Of a DNA stretch of 64,000 bases, positions 26,992 through 35,726 are shown in pieces. Source of the stretch: Cytophagaceae bacterium. GTDB taxonomy: Bacteria > Bacteroidota > Bacteroidia > Cytophagales > JAIYAX01. Both the position numbers and the translations under genes were made by a program. The stretch is taken from NCBI GenBank assembly GCA_027488815.1, contig JAIYAX010000026.1, positions 79,812-143,811 on the forward strand, written 5' to 3'. The notes beneath the pieces were generated by a model, which saw only the letters and a list, made by a program, of their open reading frames with translations, made no database searches and was not told the origin of the DNA. The stretch's first letter is position 1. Every line of letters begins with the position of its first letter.

Positions 26992-28077
26992 ATGTTTGAT
27001 TTAAGATTTGTGATCCATACCTCTTCACTGAAAAAAGCGATTACAGAGCCCAATGATTTTGAGCAGCATTTGAGTTTGTTGGAAGATCACAAGCCTCAAG
27101 TCCCTCCGGTTTTCCAGATCGAAACCACAAATATTTGCAACCTTACTTGCGTAATGTGTCCAAGAACAAACCTGATGGAAAGGCCACTGGGAAGTATGAG
27201 TGTAGATCAGTTTAGGTATATTCTAGAGAGATTAAAGCCGCAACAAACAGCAGTTTGGGAAGAATGGGAAACATTTGTAAGAGAGTCCAATTTGGAAAAT
27301 TCAAAGGCTTATCTTGAGGACTATTTTTACTTTTTCATTTGTGCCAAGTCAATTATTTTACATGGATTTGGAGAACCTATTTTAGATAAAACACTTCTTC
27401 AGAAAATTGAGATAGCTTCAGAACTAGGCTTCCCTACCTATTTTTCCATGAACCCTGTTAACATTCAAGTTGAGAAAATTGAGAAACTAATGGAGGCAGG
27501 GTTGGATTTTATAAAATTCAGCTTAGAGGGGTTAGACAACGAAACTCAACAGAAATATAGAGGACGAGTAGATAAGGACTTTGAGATAACTTTAGATAAA
27601 ATACACAAAATATTAGGAGTTAAAAAAGATAAAGGATATAAGACCACTATAATACTAACTAAGTTGGATTTCAAAAGTAATGATCCAAAATCTGTCGAGT
27701 TCATATCCTATTGGGAGCAGTTTCCAGTATTGGCTTATATCAAAAATCAGCATAACAGGTGGTTATATCAGGAAGAAGAAGTTGGTCCTAATACTGCAGA
27801 GTACATGCAAAGGTATTGTGAGTTTCCCTGGTCTTCAGTATCTATATTGTATGATGGCACAGTAGTACCTTGTCCATTAGAGTATGAAGGTAAACTCAAT
27901 ATGGGAAACATTTTCAAGCAAAGCTTAGAAGAGATTTGGAACAGCCCAACTTATTTTGCCTTTAGAGAGATGCACAAGAATGGCAACTTTCCTGAAGGTC
28001 ACTTTTGTAAAACACAGTGCGACTACAAGCAAGTTTATGAATTCAGACCTTCTGTCAAAAGCAAGAAAAAGAGCTAG
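26992..28077 (+). CDS. Radical SAM/SPASM domain protein of ulosonate cluster
   Basis: A 361-residue radical S-adenosylmethionine enzyme. The iron-sulfur motif CxxxCxxC is C49-C53-C56 (NICNLTCVMCPR), and HGFGEP, the region near the SAM-binding strand, follows. Four further cysteines (C276, C294, C339, C343) form a SPASM-type auxiliary cluster. Compared with usual family members there is an extra helical-looking stretch of about 30 residues between the first motif and HGFGEP. In this context it may oxidise or rearrange a sugar, as SPASM/twitch dehydrogenases do in aminocyclitol biosynthesis; that is inference. Its 3' end overlaps the aminotransferase gene by about 40 nt. Confidence 0.88.
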   Translation: MFDLRFVIHTSSLKKAITEPNDFEQHLSLLEDHKPQVPPVFQIETTNICNLTCVMCPRTNLMERPLGSMSVDQFRYILERLKPQQTAVWEEWETFVRESNLENSKAYLEDYFYFFICAKSIILHGFGEPILDKTLLQKIEIASELGFPTYFSMNPVNIQVEKIEKLMEAGLDFIKFSLEGLDNETQQKYRGRVDKDFEITLDKIHKILGVKKDKGYKTTIILTKLDFKSNDPKSVEFISYWEQFPVLAYIKNQHNRWLYQEEEVGPNTAEYMQRYCEFPWSSVSILYDGTVVPCPLEYEGKLNMGNIFKQSLEEIWNSPTYFAFREMHKNGNFPEGHFCKTQCDYKQVYEFRPSVKSKKKS

Positions 28078-29332
28078 CGATTTAATTCCTTCAGGTGCCC
28101 ACACCTATTCCAGGGCATCGGATCAGTTTCCATCAAATGCGCCTGACTTTATTCTACGCTCAGAAGGTTGCAAAGCCTATGCATCAGATGGTAAATCTTA
28201 TCTTGATTATGGCATGGGCCTTTTTTCAGTATCTCTAGGACATGCGTACTTACCTGTCATCTCTGCAATAAGTTCTAATTTGTCAATAGGAAATAGTTTT
28301 TCAAAACCTTCTTTACTCGAAGGGGAGTTAGCAGAAAGGTTGCACCATGCTATTCCATCAGCTGAGATGGTCAAATTTGCAAAAAACGGGTCTGATGCAA
28401 ATTCTGCAGCTGTAAGACTGGCAAGGTATTATACTCAAAGAGATTTAGTGGTTCGATGCAAAGGGCAACCGTTTTTAAGCTTTGATGATTGGTTTATAGG
28501 GTCTACCAGTAGGCCAGGGGGAGTGCCAAAATGTGAAAGAAGCCTGATTTTGCAAATGGAGTATAATAATGTCAAAAGTCTGGAGGCCTTATTCCATGAG
28601 TTTCCTAAACAAATAGCTTGTGTCATTATTGAGCCAGTTACTTTCTATGAGCCGGAAAATGGATTTTTGCAGCTTGTAAAAAGCTTATGTGAAAAGGAAG
28701 GGGCATTGCTCATTTTTGACGAAGTTATTACCGGCTTCAGGTGGCATACAGGCGGTGCTCAAACCTATTTCGGGGTGACACCACATCTAAGCACTTTTGG
28801 TAAGGGAATGGCAAATGGATTTGCACTGTCAGCAGTAGTGGGCAAACGTGAAGTAATGGATGCAGGAAGAAGAAACGGACCAGTTTTTTTACTTTCATGT
28901 ACCTATGGCGGAGAAATAGTAGGCTTATCAGCGGGAATTAAAACATTTGATATTTTTATTAATGAGCCTGTTATTAAACACTATTGGAACTATGGCCGGA
29001 AGTTGAAAGGCATTATATCTGAACTGATTGAACGCTATAACCTGGATTCATTTATTTCTGTAATCGGAATGGATTGTCGACCTGAAATTGATTTTCATGG
29101 AGGCGGGCATTTCGACCGATGGGAGCTTAAGACTCTGTTTTTGCAAGAGATGATAAATATGGGTGTATTTATGGAGCGTATTTGTATTTCTTATAGTCAC
29201 TCTGAAACAGATTTAGAATGGACAAAGACTGCTTTGGCAAAAGCACTAAATCAAGTATCAATCGCTGTTCAGGCAGGCAACATAAGTCAGTTTTATGATG
29301 GAGAAGCCATTAAACCAGTCTTTACATATTAA
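28037..29332 (+). CDS. Class III (GSA-aminomutase-like) PLP aminotransferase
   Basis: A 431-residue pyridoxal-phosphate enzyme related to glutamate-1-semialdehyde 2,1-aminomutase. The start is ATG at 28037 (MNSDLLSKARKRASD), overlapping the radical SAM gene; this is a typical N-terminus for the family. Visible landmarks are DYGMGLFSVSLGH, KNGSDANSAAVRLAR, the PLP-ring Asp in IFDEVITGFR, and the Schiff-base lysine in STFGKGMANGF. In this cluster, a role in tetrapyrrole synthesis is unlikely. It more probably adds an amino group to a sugar or ulosonic acid carbonyl; the substrate is not known. Confidence 0.9.
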   Translation: MNSDLLSKARKRASDLIPSGAHTYSRASDQFPSNAPDFILRSEGCKAYASDGKSYLDYGMGLFSVSLGHAYLPVISAISSNLSIGNSFSKPSLLEGELAERLHHAIPSAEMVKFAKNGSDANSAAVRLARYYTQRDLVVRCKGQPFLSFDDWFIGSTSRPGGVPKCERSLILQMEYNNVKSLEALFHEFPKQIACVIIEPVTFYEPENGFLQLVKSLCEKEGALLIFDEVITGFRWHTGGAQTYFGVTPHLSTFGKGMANGFALSAVVGKREVMDAGRRNGPVFLLSCTYGGEIVGLSAGIKTFDIFINEPVIKHYWNYGRKLKGIISELIERYNLDSFISVIGMDCRPEIDFHGGGHFDRWELKTLFLQEMINMGVFMERICISYSHSETDLEWTKTALAKALNQVSIAVQAGNISQFYDGEAIKPVFTY

Positions 29333-29338
29333 CCCTGC

Positions 29339-30394
29339 ATGAAGTCAATTGCTGTTATTCGCACAGGGGGTATTGGGGATGTTATTCTTTCTTTTGTTTT
29401 TTTTAACGTTCTGAAAAGGCATTCATTGTCAGACATCAGAGTATTCTGGATTGGGAGAGGGCAATCACTGGATTTAGTTTGTCATTACTTTCCATTTATT
29501 ATACCTGTCGAAATTCAAGGGAAAGGAAAACTTTGGCCATCTATCAGAGAAGTGGTACACAAACTTCCTCCTATCGATTCCATAATTGATCTCCAAAGAA
29601 GTTCCAGAACTGTTCTTTTAAGTTTGGTATTGTATTTTAAGTATAATTCAAGTTATACGACATGGGACAAGAGAAGTGTTTTCAGAAGTTGGCAAACAAT
29701 TAAAAGCTATTTTAGGGGCAGGTTTTATAGTAAACCTTTGCTGGTAAATTCTAAGAAAAGCCGTGTTTACCTGATGGCTGAAGCCAGCCATTTGGGTATA
29801 TGCAAAGCTGTTAATTGTCCTGTAGATCAAGTCAAATGGCAAGACTGTAAGCCATCACTTAATCAAGATGGCAAGAGGAATAGTCTATTCACCATTTCTG
29901 TAGTGGTCGATGCCTTATTTGATAAAAAGTCATTGCCAGAAAATAAATGGATAGACCTTTTGAATAAAATAAATTCTGCTTACTCAGAAATTTTCATCCA
30001 ATTTCTTGGGGAAGAACCCTCTTACTACAAGTCGGAGCGCATTGCCAAAGCGGTTGGACTAAAAAACTATTCAAATCACTGTGGTATGACCACTTTGATC
30101 GAAGCCAGCCAATTGTTAAACAAAGGAGAGCTAACTTTAAGTAATGATAGTGCCTTAGCACACCTATCGGAGGCATTAGGTGTCCCAGTAATGGTGTTTT
30201 TTGGACCCACAATTGAGGCCTTTGGCTATCTTCCGTATCTGACCAGCAGTCAGGCTTTTTCGGTTCGTCTTGGTTGCAGACCTTGTTCAAAAAGTGGCTC
30301 CGGATCTTGTAGATATGGTGACCGACTTTGCTTTCAGGCTTTAAATACAAATGAGATTTCTACCCAGGTTTTATCAAGATGTTACGTATCATAA
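29339..30394 (+). CDS. Glycosyltransferase family 9 (heptosyltransferase-like)
   Basis: A 351-residue cytoplasmic GT-B enzyme of family GT9, which in other bacteria transfers heptose to lipopolysaccharide core. The N-terminus IAVIRTGGIGDVILSF and the C-terminal donor-site stretch LSNDSALAHLSEALGVPVMVFFGPT are the hallmark regions. It starts 6 nt after the aminotransferase stop, and its 3' end overlaps the next gene by 16 nt. The Cys-rich tail (GCRPCSKSGSGSCRYGDRLC) is also seen in this family. It probably builds the same glycan as the other genes; acceptor unknown. Confidence 0.93.
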   Translation: MKSIAVIRTGGIGDVILSFVFFNVLKRHSLSDIRVFWIGRGQSLDLVCHYFPFIIPVEIQGKGKLWPSIREVVHKLPPIDSIIDLQRSSRTVLLSLVLYFKYNSSYTTWDKRSVFRSWQTIKSYFRGRFYSKPLLVNSKKSRVYLMAEASHLGICKAVNCPVDQVKWQDCKPSLNQDGKRNSLFTISVVVDALFDKKSLPENKWIDLLNKINSAYSEIFIQFLGEEPSYYKSERIAKAVGLKNYSNHCGMTTLIEASQLLNKGELTLSNDSALAHLSEALGVPVMVFFGPTIEAFGYLPYLTSSQAFSVRLGCRPCSKSGSGSCRYGDRLCFQALNTNEISTQVLSRCYVS

Positions 30395-31575
30395 CGTACA
30401 TATCCATTGGTCTGTTTTGGGACCTTCTTTCGATCCCGCTCTTGCCAGTTTTACTTTTACTTGGAATTAAATATTCCACTTTAAATACCTACATGAAAAC
30501 CAGGTCATGGAATTTTTTATTTAGCAGACATACTGGTGAGCTGCCTGTCGTTTTGCTTTATTGTTCAAGTGCAGGTGAATATGAGCAAGCAAGTCCGTTG
30601 GCACGGCAGTTTGAAGAAAAGGGATATGAACCCATCTACATCTTTTTTTCAGTTAACGGTTTGCAACATGCAAGTAGCCAGCAAGAAAATTATAAGATGC
30701 ATATGGCTCCCTATGATAGTTTTTTTACTTGGTTTATATTTCTTTTAAGGTTTAGGCCTAAATCTCTTACCATCATTAAGCATGAGTTCTGGCCATGTTG
30801 TATTGCAGCTGCTGCTTTGTTTAGTAAGGTTAATGCAGTGTTGATTCCTTTAAAAAACAGAAACGGTTTGAGGCAATTCGTTCAAAATTCACTTTTGAGA
30901 CTTTTTGACACTTTGCATTTTATCTCTTACAAAGAGAAAGATCTCTCTGATTTTTACTACGATACAAGGCCTCACCAAATAGATTTTAAAGTAAAAAATG
31001 GCTATTTGAAATTAACTCCTTTTGTAGAATGGAAAAGCAATATTTGTAAATCAGGTGAACTTTTATTGGTAATGGGTAATGCATATTTATCTGATGCAGA
31101 ACAGCTTTTAAGATTAGGCTATTTTGATTTATTGCAAACGATCAAGATAATTATCGTACCACATAACACTTTTGAAAGCCAAAGAATTAACTCATATTTT
31201 TCAGATACTATACCTTCACATTTTGATTCCATCAACACAATAGGCTTGGAAACCAATAAGTCAATATTAATTATTTCTGTTTACGGTCAATTGCTCTGGA
31301 TTTATTCTATTGCAGACGTAATTTGGATTGGAGGAGGTTTTGGAAAGGGAGTTCATTGTATTTGGGAGCCGGCCTATTTTAATGTGCCACTGGTTTGTGG
31401 CCCTCATTTAAATGACGAGCCTGATGCTCTCTTTTTCAATGAGAACGGAATGCTGTATGATCCCAGTTATTTAAAAGAGAATTTTTTATCCTTGCAAGAG
31501 AGCTTCAAGTTGCCAGGAATACTTTATCTCGAGCATTTAAAAAAGCCGTCAATTCAAATTAATAAATTGGTATAA
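30379..31575 (+). CDS. Kdo transferase-like (WaaA/KdtA, GT30) glycosyltransferase
   Basis: A 398-residue GT-B protein resembling 3-deoxy-D-manno-octulosonic acid transferase, which moves Kdo from CMP-Kdo to lipid A. An N-terminal membrane anchor (about residues 5-30) is followed by the segment YCSSAGEYEQASPL, matching the catalytic [W]xHxxSxGE region with E67 as the candidate catalytic acid; the usual His is replaced by Tyr. The CMP-binding region reads IGGGFGKGVHCIWEPAYFN followed by GPH, close to canonical. Sited beside CMP-sugar synthetase and ulosonate synthase genes, it is probably a specialised transferase for that sugar rather than the housekeeping enzyme. Confidence 0.82.
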   Translation: MLRIITYISIGLFWDLLSIPLLPVLLLLGIKYSTLNTYMKTRSWNFLFSRHTGELPVVLLYCSSAGEYEQASPLARQFEEKGYEPIYIFFSVNGLQHASSQQENYKMHMAPYDSFFTWFIFLLRFRPKSLTIIKHEFWPCCIAAAALFSKVNAVLIPLKNRNGLRQFVQNSLLRLFDTLHFISYKEKDLSDFYYDTRPHQIDFKVKNGYLKLTPFVEWKSNICKSGELLLVMGNAYLSDAEQLLRLGYFDLLQTIKIIIVPHNTFESQRINSYFSDTIPSHFDSINTIGLETNKSILIISVYGQLLWIYSIADVIWIGGGFGKGVHCIWEPAYFNVPLVCGPHLNDEPDALFFNENGMLYDPSYLKENFLSLQESFKLPGILYLEHLKKPSIQINKLV

Positions 31576-31579
31576 ACAC

Positions 31580-32245
31580 ATGAAAGTATTAATCCCTGCC
31601 AAGTCAATCTCAAAAAGGGTCACTCTAAAGAATTTTCGGCCATTTTATCAAAACAAGTCCTTAGTAGATATTAAAGTTGAACAGGTCTTAATTGCATTTA
31701 GCCCAACTGACGTGTATCTGAGCTGCGATGATCCTGCTTATTCGGAGGTGGCTGATCGATATGGAATTCACTTTGTTTTACGGAGTAAAGAGTACGCTCA
31801 TGAAGAAATTCCTTGGCCAGTTTCATTTGCAGGGATAGTATCTGAGTTGCCTGTATCTGAAGAAGAAGATATTTTTTGGACAGAAGTTGTAAATCCTTTG
31901 TTTAGTGATTTTTTATTATTTCGACAGACATGGGAAGTCAAAAAGAAGGAAGGATATGACTCGATGCTACTTGTCTCTTCATTAAGAAAGTTTTTATTTA
32001 ATTCTGAAGGTCATCCAGCTAATTTTTTATACGGCCATTGGCATACTTATTCTCAGGAGATCAGACCATTTTATAGTTGGGATAGTGTGTGCGTCATGCA
32101 AAAAGCATTAATGCTTCGCTTTGGCTACCCAATAGGACGTAAACCTTTTTTCTTTAAGTCAGAAAGTCCTTCGATAGACATAGATACTCTTGAAGAGTTT
32201 AATATGGCTCAGACTGTTTATGAAAGAACTATTGAAAGGAAATAG
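31580..32245 (+). CDS. Acylneuraminate cytidylyltransferase-like CMP-sugar synthetase
   Basis: A 221-residue nucleotidyltransferase of the NeuA/KdsB-like family, activating an ulosonic acid with CTP to CMP-ulosonate. The nucleotide loop LIPAKSISKRVTLKNFRPF corresponds to IPARxGSKRxxxKN, with Arg-Gly replaced by Lys-Ile in part. SCDDPAYSEVA and the C-terminal DIDTLEEF fit the metal- and sugar-binding positions. The gene starts 4 nt after the previous stop and overlaps the synthase gene by 26 nt. Given the NeuB-type synthase downstream, a nonulosonic-acid-like substrate is likelier than Kdo. Confidence 0.87.
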   Translation: MKVLIPAKSISKRVTLKNFRPFYQNKSLVDIKVEQVLIAFSPTDVYLSCDDPAYSEVADRYGIHFVLRSKEYAHEEIPWPVSFAGIVSELPVSEEEDIFWTEVVNPLFSDFLLFRQTWEVKKKEGYDSMLLVSSLRKFLFNSEGHPANFLYGHWHTYSQEIRPFYSWDSVCVMQKALMLRFGYPIGRKPFFFKSESPSIDIDTLEEFNMAQTVYERTIERK

Positions 32246-33275
32246 AGGCAGATCTACATACATTATCGCTGAGATTGGGCATGCACATAGAGGTAATGTA
32301 AATCTTGCTTTGGAACTGATTGAAAGATGTGCAGTGGGAGGTGCAGATGCTGTTAAGTTTCAAAAAAGAGATCCTAGAACACTATTTACCAGTAAGTTCT
32401 TTAATAGTCCTTATGAAAGCAAGTATAGCTTTGGTAGGACTTATGGAATTCATAGAGAGTTCCTGGAGCCGACTTTAGAGATGCTAGAGAAGGCTAACGC
32501 AAAAGCTCATGAGTATAAACTGGATTTCATCGTAACACCTTTTGATATAGCAAGCCTTACTTTCTGTGAAAAATATCTAACAGTAGATGCTTATAAAATA
32601 GCTAGTGGTGACATTACCAACCACATTCTTATCGAAGAGATTGCTTCTAAGCGAAAGCCTTTATTTTGTTCTTGTGGTGCTGCCTCACTTAATGAAGTTG
32701 ACATGGCTGTAAAGATACTTAAGACTAACTCCGGCCATTTTGTACTCATGTATACCTATTCAGAATATCCACTTAAGAGAGAGCATATATTTTTAGGAAG
32801 CATTCCATTTTTGAAGTCAAGATATGAATTGGAAAACATAGGATATTCATGTCATAGCCCTGATATTTTAGTCCCTCGTATGGCCATTGATGCTGGAGCA
32901 TTATTTATTGAGAAGCACATTAAATCTGATCAATCATTCCAATTAAACGATGATTTTCATTCTATTTTACCTGAAGATTTATACTTGTTAAGACAGCCCA
33001 TTTCAGTATTGCCAGAGTTTTCAGGTATTTCATGGTCAGGAAGTATGGAGATAAACATGGGGGAGATGGAGTCGAGATATAAAATGGGTAAAAGCCTTTA
33101 TTACAAGGCTAATTTGAGTAAAGGAACAACCATTTCCGTAGATCATTTGATTAGTCTTTCACCAGCCACAGGGCTTCCACCCTATTATTTATATCAGCTT
33201 TTAGGAAAGAAGTTGTTGAAAGATGTTAAAGAAGAACAAGCGGTTCAGGTTGATGATTTCAGTAGCTCCAATTAA
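32220..33275 (+). CDS. N-acetylneuraminate synthase-like (NeuB) ulosonate synthase
   Basis: A 351-residue enzyme that condenses phosphoenolpyruvate with an amino or deoxy hexose to form a nonulosonic acid. The TIM-barrel domain (about 1-270) shows IIAEIGHAHRGN, AVKFQKRD, VTPFD, KIASGDITN and FIEKHIKSDQ; a C-terminal SAF (antifreeze-like) domain (about 275-351) follows. The start is ATG at 32220, inside the cytidylyltransferase gene, leaving a normal N-terminus. It is the last gene of the cluster. Which sugar it uses cannot be read from the sequence; no dehydratase, epimerase or acetyltransferase for a legionaminate-type pathway is in the window. Confidence 0.9.
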   Translation: MKELLKGNRGRSTYIIAEIGHAHRGNVNLALELIERCAVGGADAVKFQKRDPRTLFTSKFFNSPYESKYSFGRTYGIHREFLEPTLEMLEKANAKAHEYKLDFIVTPFDIASLTFCEKYLTVDAYKIASGDITNHILIEEIASKRKPLFCSCGAASLNEVDMAVKILKTNSGHFVLMYTYSEYPLKREHIFLGSIPFLKSRYELENIGYSCHSPDILVPRMAIDAGALFIEKHIKSDQSFQLNDDFHSILPEDLYLLRQPISVLPEFSGISWSGSMEINMGEMESRYKMGKSLYYKANLSKGTTISVDHLISLSPATGLPPYYLYQLLGKKLLKDVKEEQAVQVDDFSSSN

Positions 33276-34355: not shown

Positions 34356-34388
34356 CAAATTTAAACAAGCGTGCAAATTAAGAAAACC

Positions 34389-35726
34389 ATGACTAATGAA
34401 AGGCTTTACACAGCCCACGTTGTAAGAAATAAAGATTATACTACAATTTTAATTGTTCTTTTTGGCCTTGGATTTATCCTGAGATTAGCCTGGGTTTGGT
34501 TTGTGCCCATACAGCAATTTGGTGATTTTGCCTGGTTCAGTCTTGCCGGAATGAATATAGCTGATGGACGGGGGTATATTCATGAAGGTAAACCAACTGC
34601 AGCCTGGCCTGTTGGATATCCAGCCTTTCTTGGTAGTATTTACTTTGTATTCGGGAAAGTAGAGTATGCTGCACACATAGTGCAAATATTGGCTAATGTT
34701 TTGGCTGCGTATCTTTTTTATAAGCTGTTAAACAAGCTTTTCAAGCATTCCTTACTATCATTAATTTCTGTTGGTTTTATATTGGTTTATATGGAGCAAA
34801 TTGCTTCTGTGAATATTCTTGGTGCTGAAAATCTATTTTGGTTATTGCTTGTATTCGGACTTTATTACATCATTGATGCTACCAGAACAAGTCAGCTCAT
34901 ATTATCGGCAATTATATTTACATTTTCAGTTTATGTAAAACCAATTTCATTGTTTATCCCATTTATTGTTTTAATGATTTACCCATATAATAGGTCTTAC
35001 AAATTAAAATCTATTTTGTATTCAATTTCAATATTTTACCTTATTATCTTCCTAGGTATATTGCCTTGGATTATTAGAAATTACTATCATTTTAATAAGG
35101 TTGGCATGTCGAACAATATGGGGCTGAATTTATATATAGGAAATAACCCCAAAGCTGATGGTGGTTATATGTATGACGAGGAGTATATGATGAATGACGT
35201 TGGTAACTGGCTGGAAAATGAAGCACTTGTAGATCAAAGAGCAAAACAGAAGGCTATTCATTACATCGTCAATAATCCCGACAGTATAATTAAGTTAATT
35301 CCTAAAAAGTTTACAAAGCTATTTATTCACGACCATTTTTTTGTCGGCTGGCACTATTGGAGAAATTTTTCAGCTTATAAAACCCCTAGTCATGAGCTTT
35401 TCATTAAATATTTAATGAAGAATGGTGAAGATCGATACACAATATTTAAAAGAATTCTGCCAATTTCATTTTTCATTGGTTTTATGGCAGTATTATTAAT
35501 TCCTTTCTTTCGAAAGAGGTTTTTGAAACCTTATTTATTGATATGTGCTATTATCTCATATTTAGTATGTATTCATTTAGTCTTTTTTGGAGCTGAGCGA
35601 TTTCATTTCTCTATAATGCCCTTTCTATATGTAATTATTTTCTTTTCTGTTTTTGTTGCAGTGGAAATACTATTGCAAATTTTCAACAGGCTTAATGCTA
35701 CTATAAGTGCAGGTAAATTAAAATAG
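34389..35726 (+). CDS. GT-C glycosyltransferase, ArnT/PMT-like
   Basis: A 445-residue polytopic membrane protein with about ten helices. After the first helix, GDFAWFSLAGMNIADGRGY places an acidic residue (D46) where GT-C enzymes have their catalytic Asp, and AAWPVGYPAFLG matches the ArnT/PMT-type proline-glycine turn. These enzymes take sugar from a polyprenyl-phosphate carrier and act on the periplasmic side. The ATG at 34389 is used in place of a GTG six codons upstream. AT-rich like the ulosonate cluster, it may belong to the same accessory locus, but lies beyond a convergent core gene. Substrate unknown. Confidence 0.82.
   Translation: MTNERLYTAHVVRNKDYTTILIVLFGLGFILRLAWVWFVPIQQFGDFAWFSLAGMNIADGRGYIHEGKPTAAWPVGYPAFLGSIYFVFGKVEYAAHIVQILANVLAAYLFYKLLNKLFKHSLLSLISVGFILVYMEQIASVNILGAENLFWLLLVFGLYYIIDATRTSQLILSAIIFTFSVYVKPISLFIPFIVLMIYPYNRSYKLKSILYSISIFYLIIFLGILPWIIRNYYHFNKVGMSNNMGLNLYIGNNPKADGGYMYDEEYMMNDVGNWLENEALVDQRAKQKAIHYIVNNPDSIIKLIPKKFTKLFIHDHFFVGWHYWRNFSAYKTPSHELFIKYLMKNGEDRYTIFKRILPISFFIGFMAVLLIPFFRKRFLKPYLLICAIISYLVCIHLVFFGAERFHFSIMPFLYVIIFFSVFVAVEILLQIFNRLNATISAGKLK

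Follow-up and report, generated by a model that had tools for sequence, protein, structure and literature searches.

A six-gene operon in a Cytophagaceae genome probably makes and transfers a dedicated CMP-activated ulosonic acid distinct from Kdo, Neu5Ac, Pse and Leg. The operon occupies positions 26992-33275 (+) of the window, by which we mean the whole 64,000-nucleotide stretch of contig JAIYAX010000026.1 analysed here. The proposal builds on gene content, conserved gene order, co-occurrence, paralogy and motif retention, all of which were observed directly. Assignment to the pathway class, in which an ulosonate is made, activated and transferred, is well supported. From these data we infer the exact sugar, which is probably amino-modified, the order of the steps and the acceptor.

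Results

A compact six-gene operon shared by four Cytophagales lineages

The host genome of the window comprises 3.37 Mb in 30 contigs and is 99.6% complete. Cluster proteins were assigned using Pfam and NCBIfam profiles (Table 1). All six frames are open, and the Pfam match of each protein exceeds its curated cut-off. ORFs and Pfam matches agree in place and strand with the initial annotation, which had named six same-strand genes of these families. In place of the 4-7 nt gaps or overlaps described there, two junctions have gaps (6 and 4 nt) and at the other three the genes overlap, by 41, 16 and 26 nt. None of the cluster's sugar-biosynthesis proteins reaches the NCBIfam equivalog cut-offs for sialate, pseudaminate, Kdo or heptose enzymes.

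Table 1 Genes of the operon and loci with the same gene order in other genomes
Feature	Position or accession	Strand	Profile match or source
Radical SAM enzyme (C-terminal twitch domain), 361 aa	26992..28077	+	PF04055 4.5e-14, PF13186 1e-17
PLP class III aminotransferase, GSAM-type not HemL, 431 aa	28037..29332	+	NF004856 498.4 bits
GT9 (heptosyltransferase-family) glycosyltransferase, 351 aa	29339..30394	+	PF01075 7.2e-16
GT30 / WaaA-like transferase, hydrophobic N terminus, 398 aa	30379..31575	+	PF04413 7.8e-12
CMP-sugar synthetase, NeuA/PseF-like, distinct family, 221 aa	31580..32245	+	PF02348 4.4e-9
NeuB-family PEP-condensing ulosonate synthase with SAF, 351 aa	32220..33275	+	PF03102 4.3e-50, PF08666
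Carrier locus L039	JAQZBV010000079		Cytophagaceae MAG
Carrier locus L040	JANQHS010000038		Cytophagales MAG
Carrier locus L041	JANQSY010000148		Cytophagales MAG; contig end cuts NeuB

The operon stands alone, as it is flanked by a divergent efflux/TetR locus upstream and a DUF3298 gene downstream. Flanks in the other carriers differ from those in the window and likewise bear no relation to the pathway. No transporter, polymerase, ligase or N-acyltransferase is encoded within the cluster. An adjoining AT-rich PMT_2 gene (34371-35726) was considered as a seventh member and rejected, since it is absent from the cluster in every other carrier. The GC content of the cluster genes is 0.35-0.40, compared to 0.449 +/- 0.032 for other genes in the window.

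A search for the same neighbourhood, as the initial annotation had proposed, revealed the identical six-gene order in three further Cytophagales genomes from two other families (L039, L040 and L041). Identities to the window proteins are 47% for the radical SAM (rSAM) enzyme, 50-54% for the aminotransferase, 34-36% for GT9, 25-29% for GT30, 43-45% for the CMP enzyme and 38-48% for NeuB. All four carriers are environmental, distantly related Cytophagales, belonging to three families in all. The distribution was determined across 390 sampled genomes of the order, a census of one genome per species that does not cover all metagenomes. The CMP-synthetase profile yields four matches above 385 bits, with the next at 105 bits, and the rSAM profile reaches E <1e-30 in the same four genomes (4/390). 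The repeated order, together with the co-occurrence of rSAM and CMP-synthetase, indicates that the six genes are not a chance run of ORFs. Furthermore, the distribution of carriers and the low GC content suggest that the six genes move, or are lost, as one unit; our preferred reading is a compact, horizontally spread operon. Plasmid searches returned only distant relatives of the rSAM enzyme, NeuB, GT30 and the CMP enzyme, while a single scan for viral carriage, with the cluster GT30 as query, found no relative.

The cluster GT30 is a WaaA paralogue

A canonical WaaA (411 aa, G000:C20:582332) and a canonical KdsB (248 aa, G000:C19:21077) are encoded elsewhere in the window genome, making the cluster GT30 its second GT30. 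The initial annotation had held that a sole WaaA-like gene, alongside an ordinary synthase, would mark a normal LPS or sialate locus; the separate WaaA and KdsB rule the cluster out as the normal LPS pathway, and a normal LPS locus was rejected on this ground. C20 also holds three more GT9 genes, at 525-569 kb, close to the canonical WaaA (582 kb). GT30 was detected in 341 of 380 genomes searched and gave two matches in only 8. Four of these are G105, G160, G199 and G252. The other four are the carriers, on which the closer look was focused, each with a strong canonical GT30 (118-143 bits) and a weaker cluster copy (45-77 bits). G178, G186 and G202, congeners of carrier G161, contain a single GT30 each.

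The cluster GT30 scores 45.5 bits against a cut-off of 23.9 for the N-terminal domain PF04413, and 71.8 bits against 363 for the lipid IVA Kdo transferase equivalog NF004389. WaaA structures (2xci/2xcu and 4bfc) are its only PDB profile matches. It resembles WaaA (KdtA; Aquifex 2xci, E. coli K-12) in profile and fold family, in the catalytic Glu (E67, SxGE), which is invariant, in the CMP-binding motif G-G-x-F...H...E, which is kept in the cluster GT30s, and in an N-terminal hydrophobic stretch. In contrast, it is only ~24-30% identical to canonical copies, and it is a second copy located beside a NeuB-type synthase rather than in a Kdo pathway. Six residues ahead of the Glu, E. coli K-12 WaaA and 35/35 canonical Bacteroidota WaaAs have a His, where 4/4 cluster GT30s have Tyr or Phe, and the Tyr of YLPxD is replaced by Leu or Met. 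The four cluster GT30s form one clade (support 100/99), apart from the 35 canonical WaaAs. AlphaFold models of GT30 and the rSAM enzyme are poor (pLDDT 57 and 50, respectively) due to the four-sequence alignments available. A Foldseek search with this GT30 model returned WaaA 2xci as the top match (E 9e-12, TM 0.4), and we count this as weak support.

The NeuB-family synthase forms a separate clade

Cluster NeuB is the sole NeuB in the window genome. It has the NeuB fold and SAF domain of NeuB/LegI/PseI and SpsE, and the PEP and metal-binding residues are retained, with Asp at the E134 equivalent. Equivalents of meningococcal E25, K53, Q55, T110, F112, K129, S132, S213, H215, E234 and H236 are kept in the cluster NeuBs; the list of binding residues and the role of Arg314 are taken from work on the meningococcal enzyme (PMC6795526). 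Cluster NeuB differs from NeuB/LegI/PseI in scoring 191.6 against a cut-off of 399.65 for the NeuB_NnaB equivalog and 168.6 against 340.25 for PseI. The cluster NeuBs constitute one clade (98/96) outside the annotated PseI and NeuB/LegI groups, with a NeuB from a Streptomyces plasmid as sister. The synthase is thus not of the ordinary type, and a sialate or pseudaminate locus was rejected given the missed cut-offs and the position in the tree.

In the cluster NeuBs, the N74 region carries a distinct motif, S-[FY]-G-x-T-Y-G-x-H-R-E-x-L-E, and the R314 equivalent is Lys in every member that reaches this position, in place of the Arg314-type N-acetyl contact. This Lys was rejected as a decisive specificity marker because it also occurs in 8/38 other NeuBs and because the R314K variant of N. 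meningitidis NANAS remains active (PMC6795526).

In the GT30 and NeuB trees, the longest branch is that of the window copy (4.4 and 1.7 substitutions per site, respectively), and in both copies residues that are conserved in the other proteins have changed (HN to HC; SDH/SGH to SCH). These two window copies could be drifting. As they evolve fast relative to those of the other carriers and some conserved residues differ, functional claims are safer for L039-L041.

CMP-sugar synthetase and GT9

The cluster CMP enzyme differs widely from NeuA, PseF and KdsB: it scores 41.5 bits against a cut-off of 205.7 for the PseF equivalog, and no match to the KdsB model was found. GT9 is related by profile to HepII (1psw, 3e-12), with scores of 49.4 against 134.6 and 47.9 against 185.3 for the LPS heptosyltransferase I and II equivalogs.

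A twitch radical SAM enzyme is paired with an aminotransferase

The initial annotation described a radical SAM/SPASM enzyme. The radical SAM assignment and a SPASM-type Pfam match stand, but the CxxxCxxC motif is accompanied by only four invariant C-terminal Cys (C276, C294, C339 and C343), the pattern of a twitch domain that holds a single auxiliary cluster. The nearest solved relative is BtrN (4m7s/4m7t, 2e-15), although the relationship is distant. BtrN, a twitch enzyme, carries out the two-electron oxidation of an aminocyclitol alcohol (PMC9012708). As in butirosin biosynthesis, where an aminotransferase follows BtrN, radical SAM and four-Cys twitch domains are paired with a PLP aminotransferase; unlike BtrN, the cluster enzyme is longer (361 aa) and occurs in a sugar-acid context. 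It is a probable sugar-alcohol dehydrogenase. The BtrN-like sequence does not prove dehydrogenation, as the decarboxylase BlsE is also a distant match.

The aminotransferase is adjacent to the rSAM enzyme in 4/4 clusters. Its NF004856 score lies just above the cut-off of 486, Lys256 is invariant, and assignment as HemL was rejected (TIGR00713 227.9 against a cut-off of 527.3). The same family is found next to NeuB elsewhere in the order, with an SDR in place of the rSAM enzyme (G019/G035), and is also present in CDP-sugar-type clusters without NeuB.

Proposed pathway

We infer each of the following reactions, the order of the first three steps, the sugar and the acceptor from the gene families involved. 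By analogy with BtrN, the SAM/twitch enzyme would oxidise a sugar hydroxyl by radical chemistry (step 1), following which the class III aminotransferase would convert the carbonyl into an amine (step 2), both amine and position being guessed from family relations. Step 2 is paralleled by the aminotransferase-NeuB-SDR set of G019/G035, where the SDR could be the oxidising part. The NeuB-family enzyme would then join the aldose and PEP to yield a 3-deoxy-2-ulosonic acid (step 3), which its active site retention supports, and the NeuA-like enzyme would form the CMP-ulosonate (step 4), which family membership supports. The membrane-associated GT30 paralogue may transfer this to a lipid-linked acceptor (step 5), for which our likeliest guess is the inner core of LPS or another glycolipid of a related kind. 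This transfer is supported by the linkage of the genes in all four carriers, by the motifs retained and by the hydrophobic N terminus. GT9 may add the next sugar (step 6), as modelled on the WaaA-WaaC order in LPS.

The formation, CMP activation and GT30 transfer of an ulosonate had already been put forward in the initial annotation. As a prediction, this part fits all observations. The rSAM enzyme, aminotransferase and GT9 had been given no role there; putative oxidation and amination, as well as chain extension, are added here. On a fuller and more tentative reading, to which we give somewhat less than even weight, the cassette provides a radical-SAM route to a new amino-ulosonic acid, the CMP form serves as donor for a non-Kdo GT30, and an outer-membrane glycolipid is decorated.

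Discussion

Relation to known systems

Judging by the tests run, the cassette would work like a sialate/legionaminate pathway coupled to an LPS inner-core transferase pair while being a member of none of these, and we class it as a new variant among known ulosonic-acid pathways. Related clusters that combine an aminotransferase, NeuB, SpsF, a split transketolase and an SDR (L157, G019/G035) also place a GSAM-type aminotransferase beside NeuB and a CTP_transf_3-like enzyme. They differ in having SDR and transketolase in place of the rSAM enzyme, with no GT30 or GT9 in the stretch read. The KdnA/KdnB route of Shewanella leads to 8-amino-Kdo, and Kdo is there the substrate of KdnB, a metal-dependent alcohol dehydrogenase. 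This route shares the logic of oxidising and then aminating an ulosonate, whereas the cluster uses an rSAM enzyme and a NeuB-type synthase; no metal-dependent alcohol dehydrogenase of the KdnB type was found by Pfam among the six proteins. Such a pathway was not described in the literature searched, nor was any paper found joining 'radical SAM' and 'nonulosonic', an absence that is weak evidence.

Alternative explanations

In one alternative the pathway class is unchanged, but the cluster does not aminate the ulosonate. The rSAM enzyme and aminotransferase might instead carry out epimerisation, decarboxylation or deamination of a sugar, or modify the acceptor or the later glycan. Twitch rSAM enzymes catalyse many reactions, the cluster enzyme is distant from BtrN and matches BlsE as well, and its partner's family is found in the CDP-sugar-type clusters. 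Set against this, the two genes are adjacent in all four clusters and the aminotransferase family adjoins NeuB elsewhere in the order, and we regard a cluster that leaves the ulosonate unaminated as unlikely.

It is more doubtful still that the operon is a diverged sialic/legionaminic-type locus supplied in trans with ManNAc or a diacetamido hexose, with GT30 an unrelated passenger or second Kdo transferase. Membership of the NeuB family and a UDP-GlcNAc 2-epimerase match elsewhere in the genome of three carriers are in keeping with such a locus. A second Kdo transferase is possible, as illustrated by Acinetobacter KdoT, an ulosonate transferase beside WaaA that uses CMP-Kdo and is described as unassigned to any characterised glycosyltransferase family (PMC12856342). 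However, no 2-epimerase match was found in carrier G027 (97% complete), which argues against ManNAc as an obligatory substrate. NeuB falls under the NeuB and PseI cut-offs and outside both clades, the CMP enzyme is remote from NeuA, PseF and KdsB, and all four lineages have kept GT30 within the operon. The long branches and changed motif residues of the window GT30 and NeuB, as well as the AT-rich composition, could also mean that the operon is what is left of a normal LPS core locus, or an island undergoing decay in the window genome. Yet the six frames are open with catalytic residues mostly kept, normal WaaA and KdsB are encoded elsewhere, and other genomes contain intact homologous operons; a remnant or decaying island thus appears highly improbable.

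Implications

GT30 is, to our knowledge, a single-activity family restricted to Kdo transfer, and in the ulosonic-acid routes known to us it is NAD-dependent dehydratases or oxidases, rather than radical SAM chemistry, that precede the entry of amino groups. If the proposed pathway of a dedicated CMP-ulosonate is correct, GT30 would have a second specificity, with the first non-Kdo donor in the family, and a surface sugar would be made by radical chemistry. The finding also implies that 'NeuB plus CMP synthetase' in Bacteroidota need not signify sialic, legionaminic or pseudaminic acid. On the same condition that the pathway is correct, a small portable gene set could alter the outer membrane in both charge and chemistry.

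Relatives of the cluster enzymes in other gene contexts

The PMT_2-type gene beside the cluster is AT-rich (GC 0.323), and none was seen adjoining the clusters of the three other Cytophagales carriers.

Features in the window and at related loci
Feature	Locus and coordinates	Source
PMT_2-type membrane glycosyltransferase gene, directly downstream of cluster	window 34371-35726	
CMP-synthetase relatives and neighbours	L090 12204-12968; L091 8862-9668; L092 9040-9858	other Bacteroidota
Locus with CMP-synthetase relative	L170 8989-12700	E. coli KE47
Counterpart locus	L089 8929-12764	Bacteroidota
SpsF-like cytidylyltransferase, split transketolase, GSAM-type aminotransferase, NeuB, SDR	L157 5048-12272	G019
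Fused NeuB proteins	L122 1051-3321; L136 6566-8920	
NeuB on plasmid	L135 6962-8029	Streptomyces sp. NBC_01237

The cluster CMP-synthetase has relatives scoring 176-185 bits in L090-L092. An HpcH/HpaI-family aldolase (assigned by Pfam, in L090) adjoins or lies near these relatives, with GAPDH-like and HAD-like genes, judged by eye, around them. These gene sets apparently represent a different, aldolase-based ulosonate-type pathway.

The L170/L089-type CMP-synthetase is 34-37% identical to that of the cluster and is present in 11 of 5426 E. coli genomes. The capsule-like locus surrounding the L170 gene encodes a CatB-type acetyltransferase, an IMPase-like protein and a 'GKGPSIDQID' protein; in L089, the C-terminus of the matching large protein is a NeuB stretch.

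L157 is another nonulosonate-type gene set, to which we could match no pathway described to our knowledge. Similar genes occur in a second sampled Cytophagales genome, G035.

The L122 and L136 fusions appear to join a CBS domain to NeuB/SAF, with a sugar-isomerase-like domain at the C-terminus. The Streptomyces plasmid NeuB is sister to the cluster synthases. Beside it lie transketolase-like, NRPS-type adenylation and HPPD/HmaS-like genes, and it is possibly used in a natural product.
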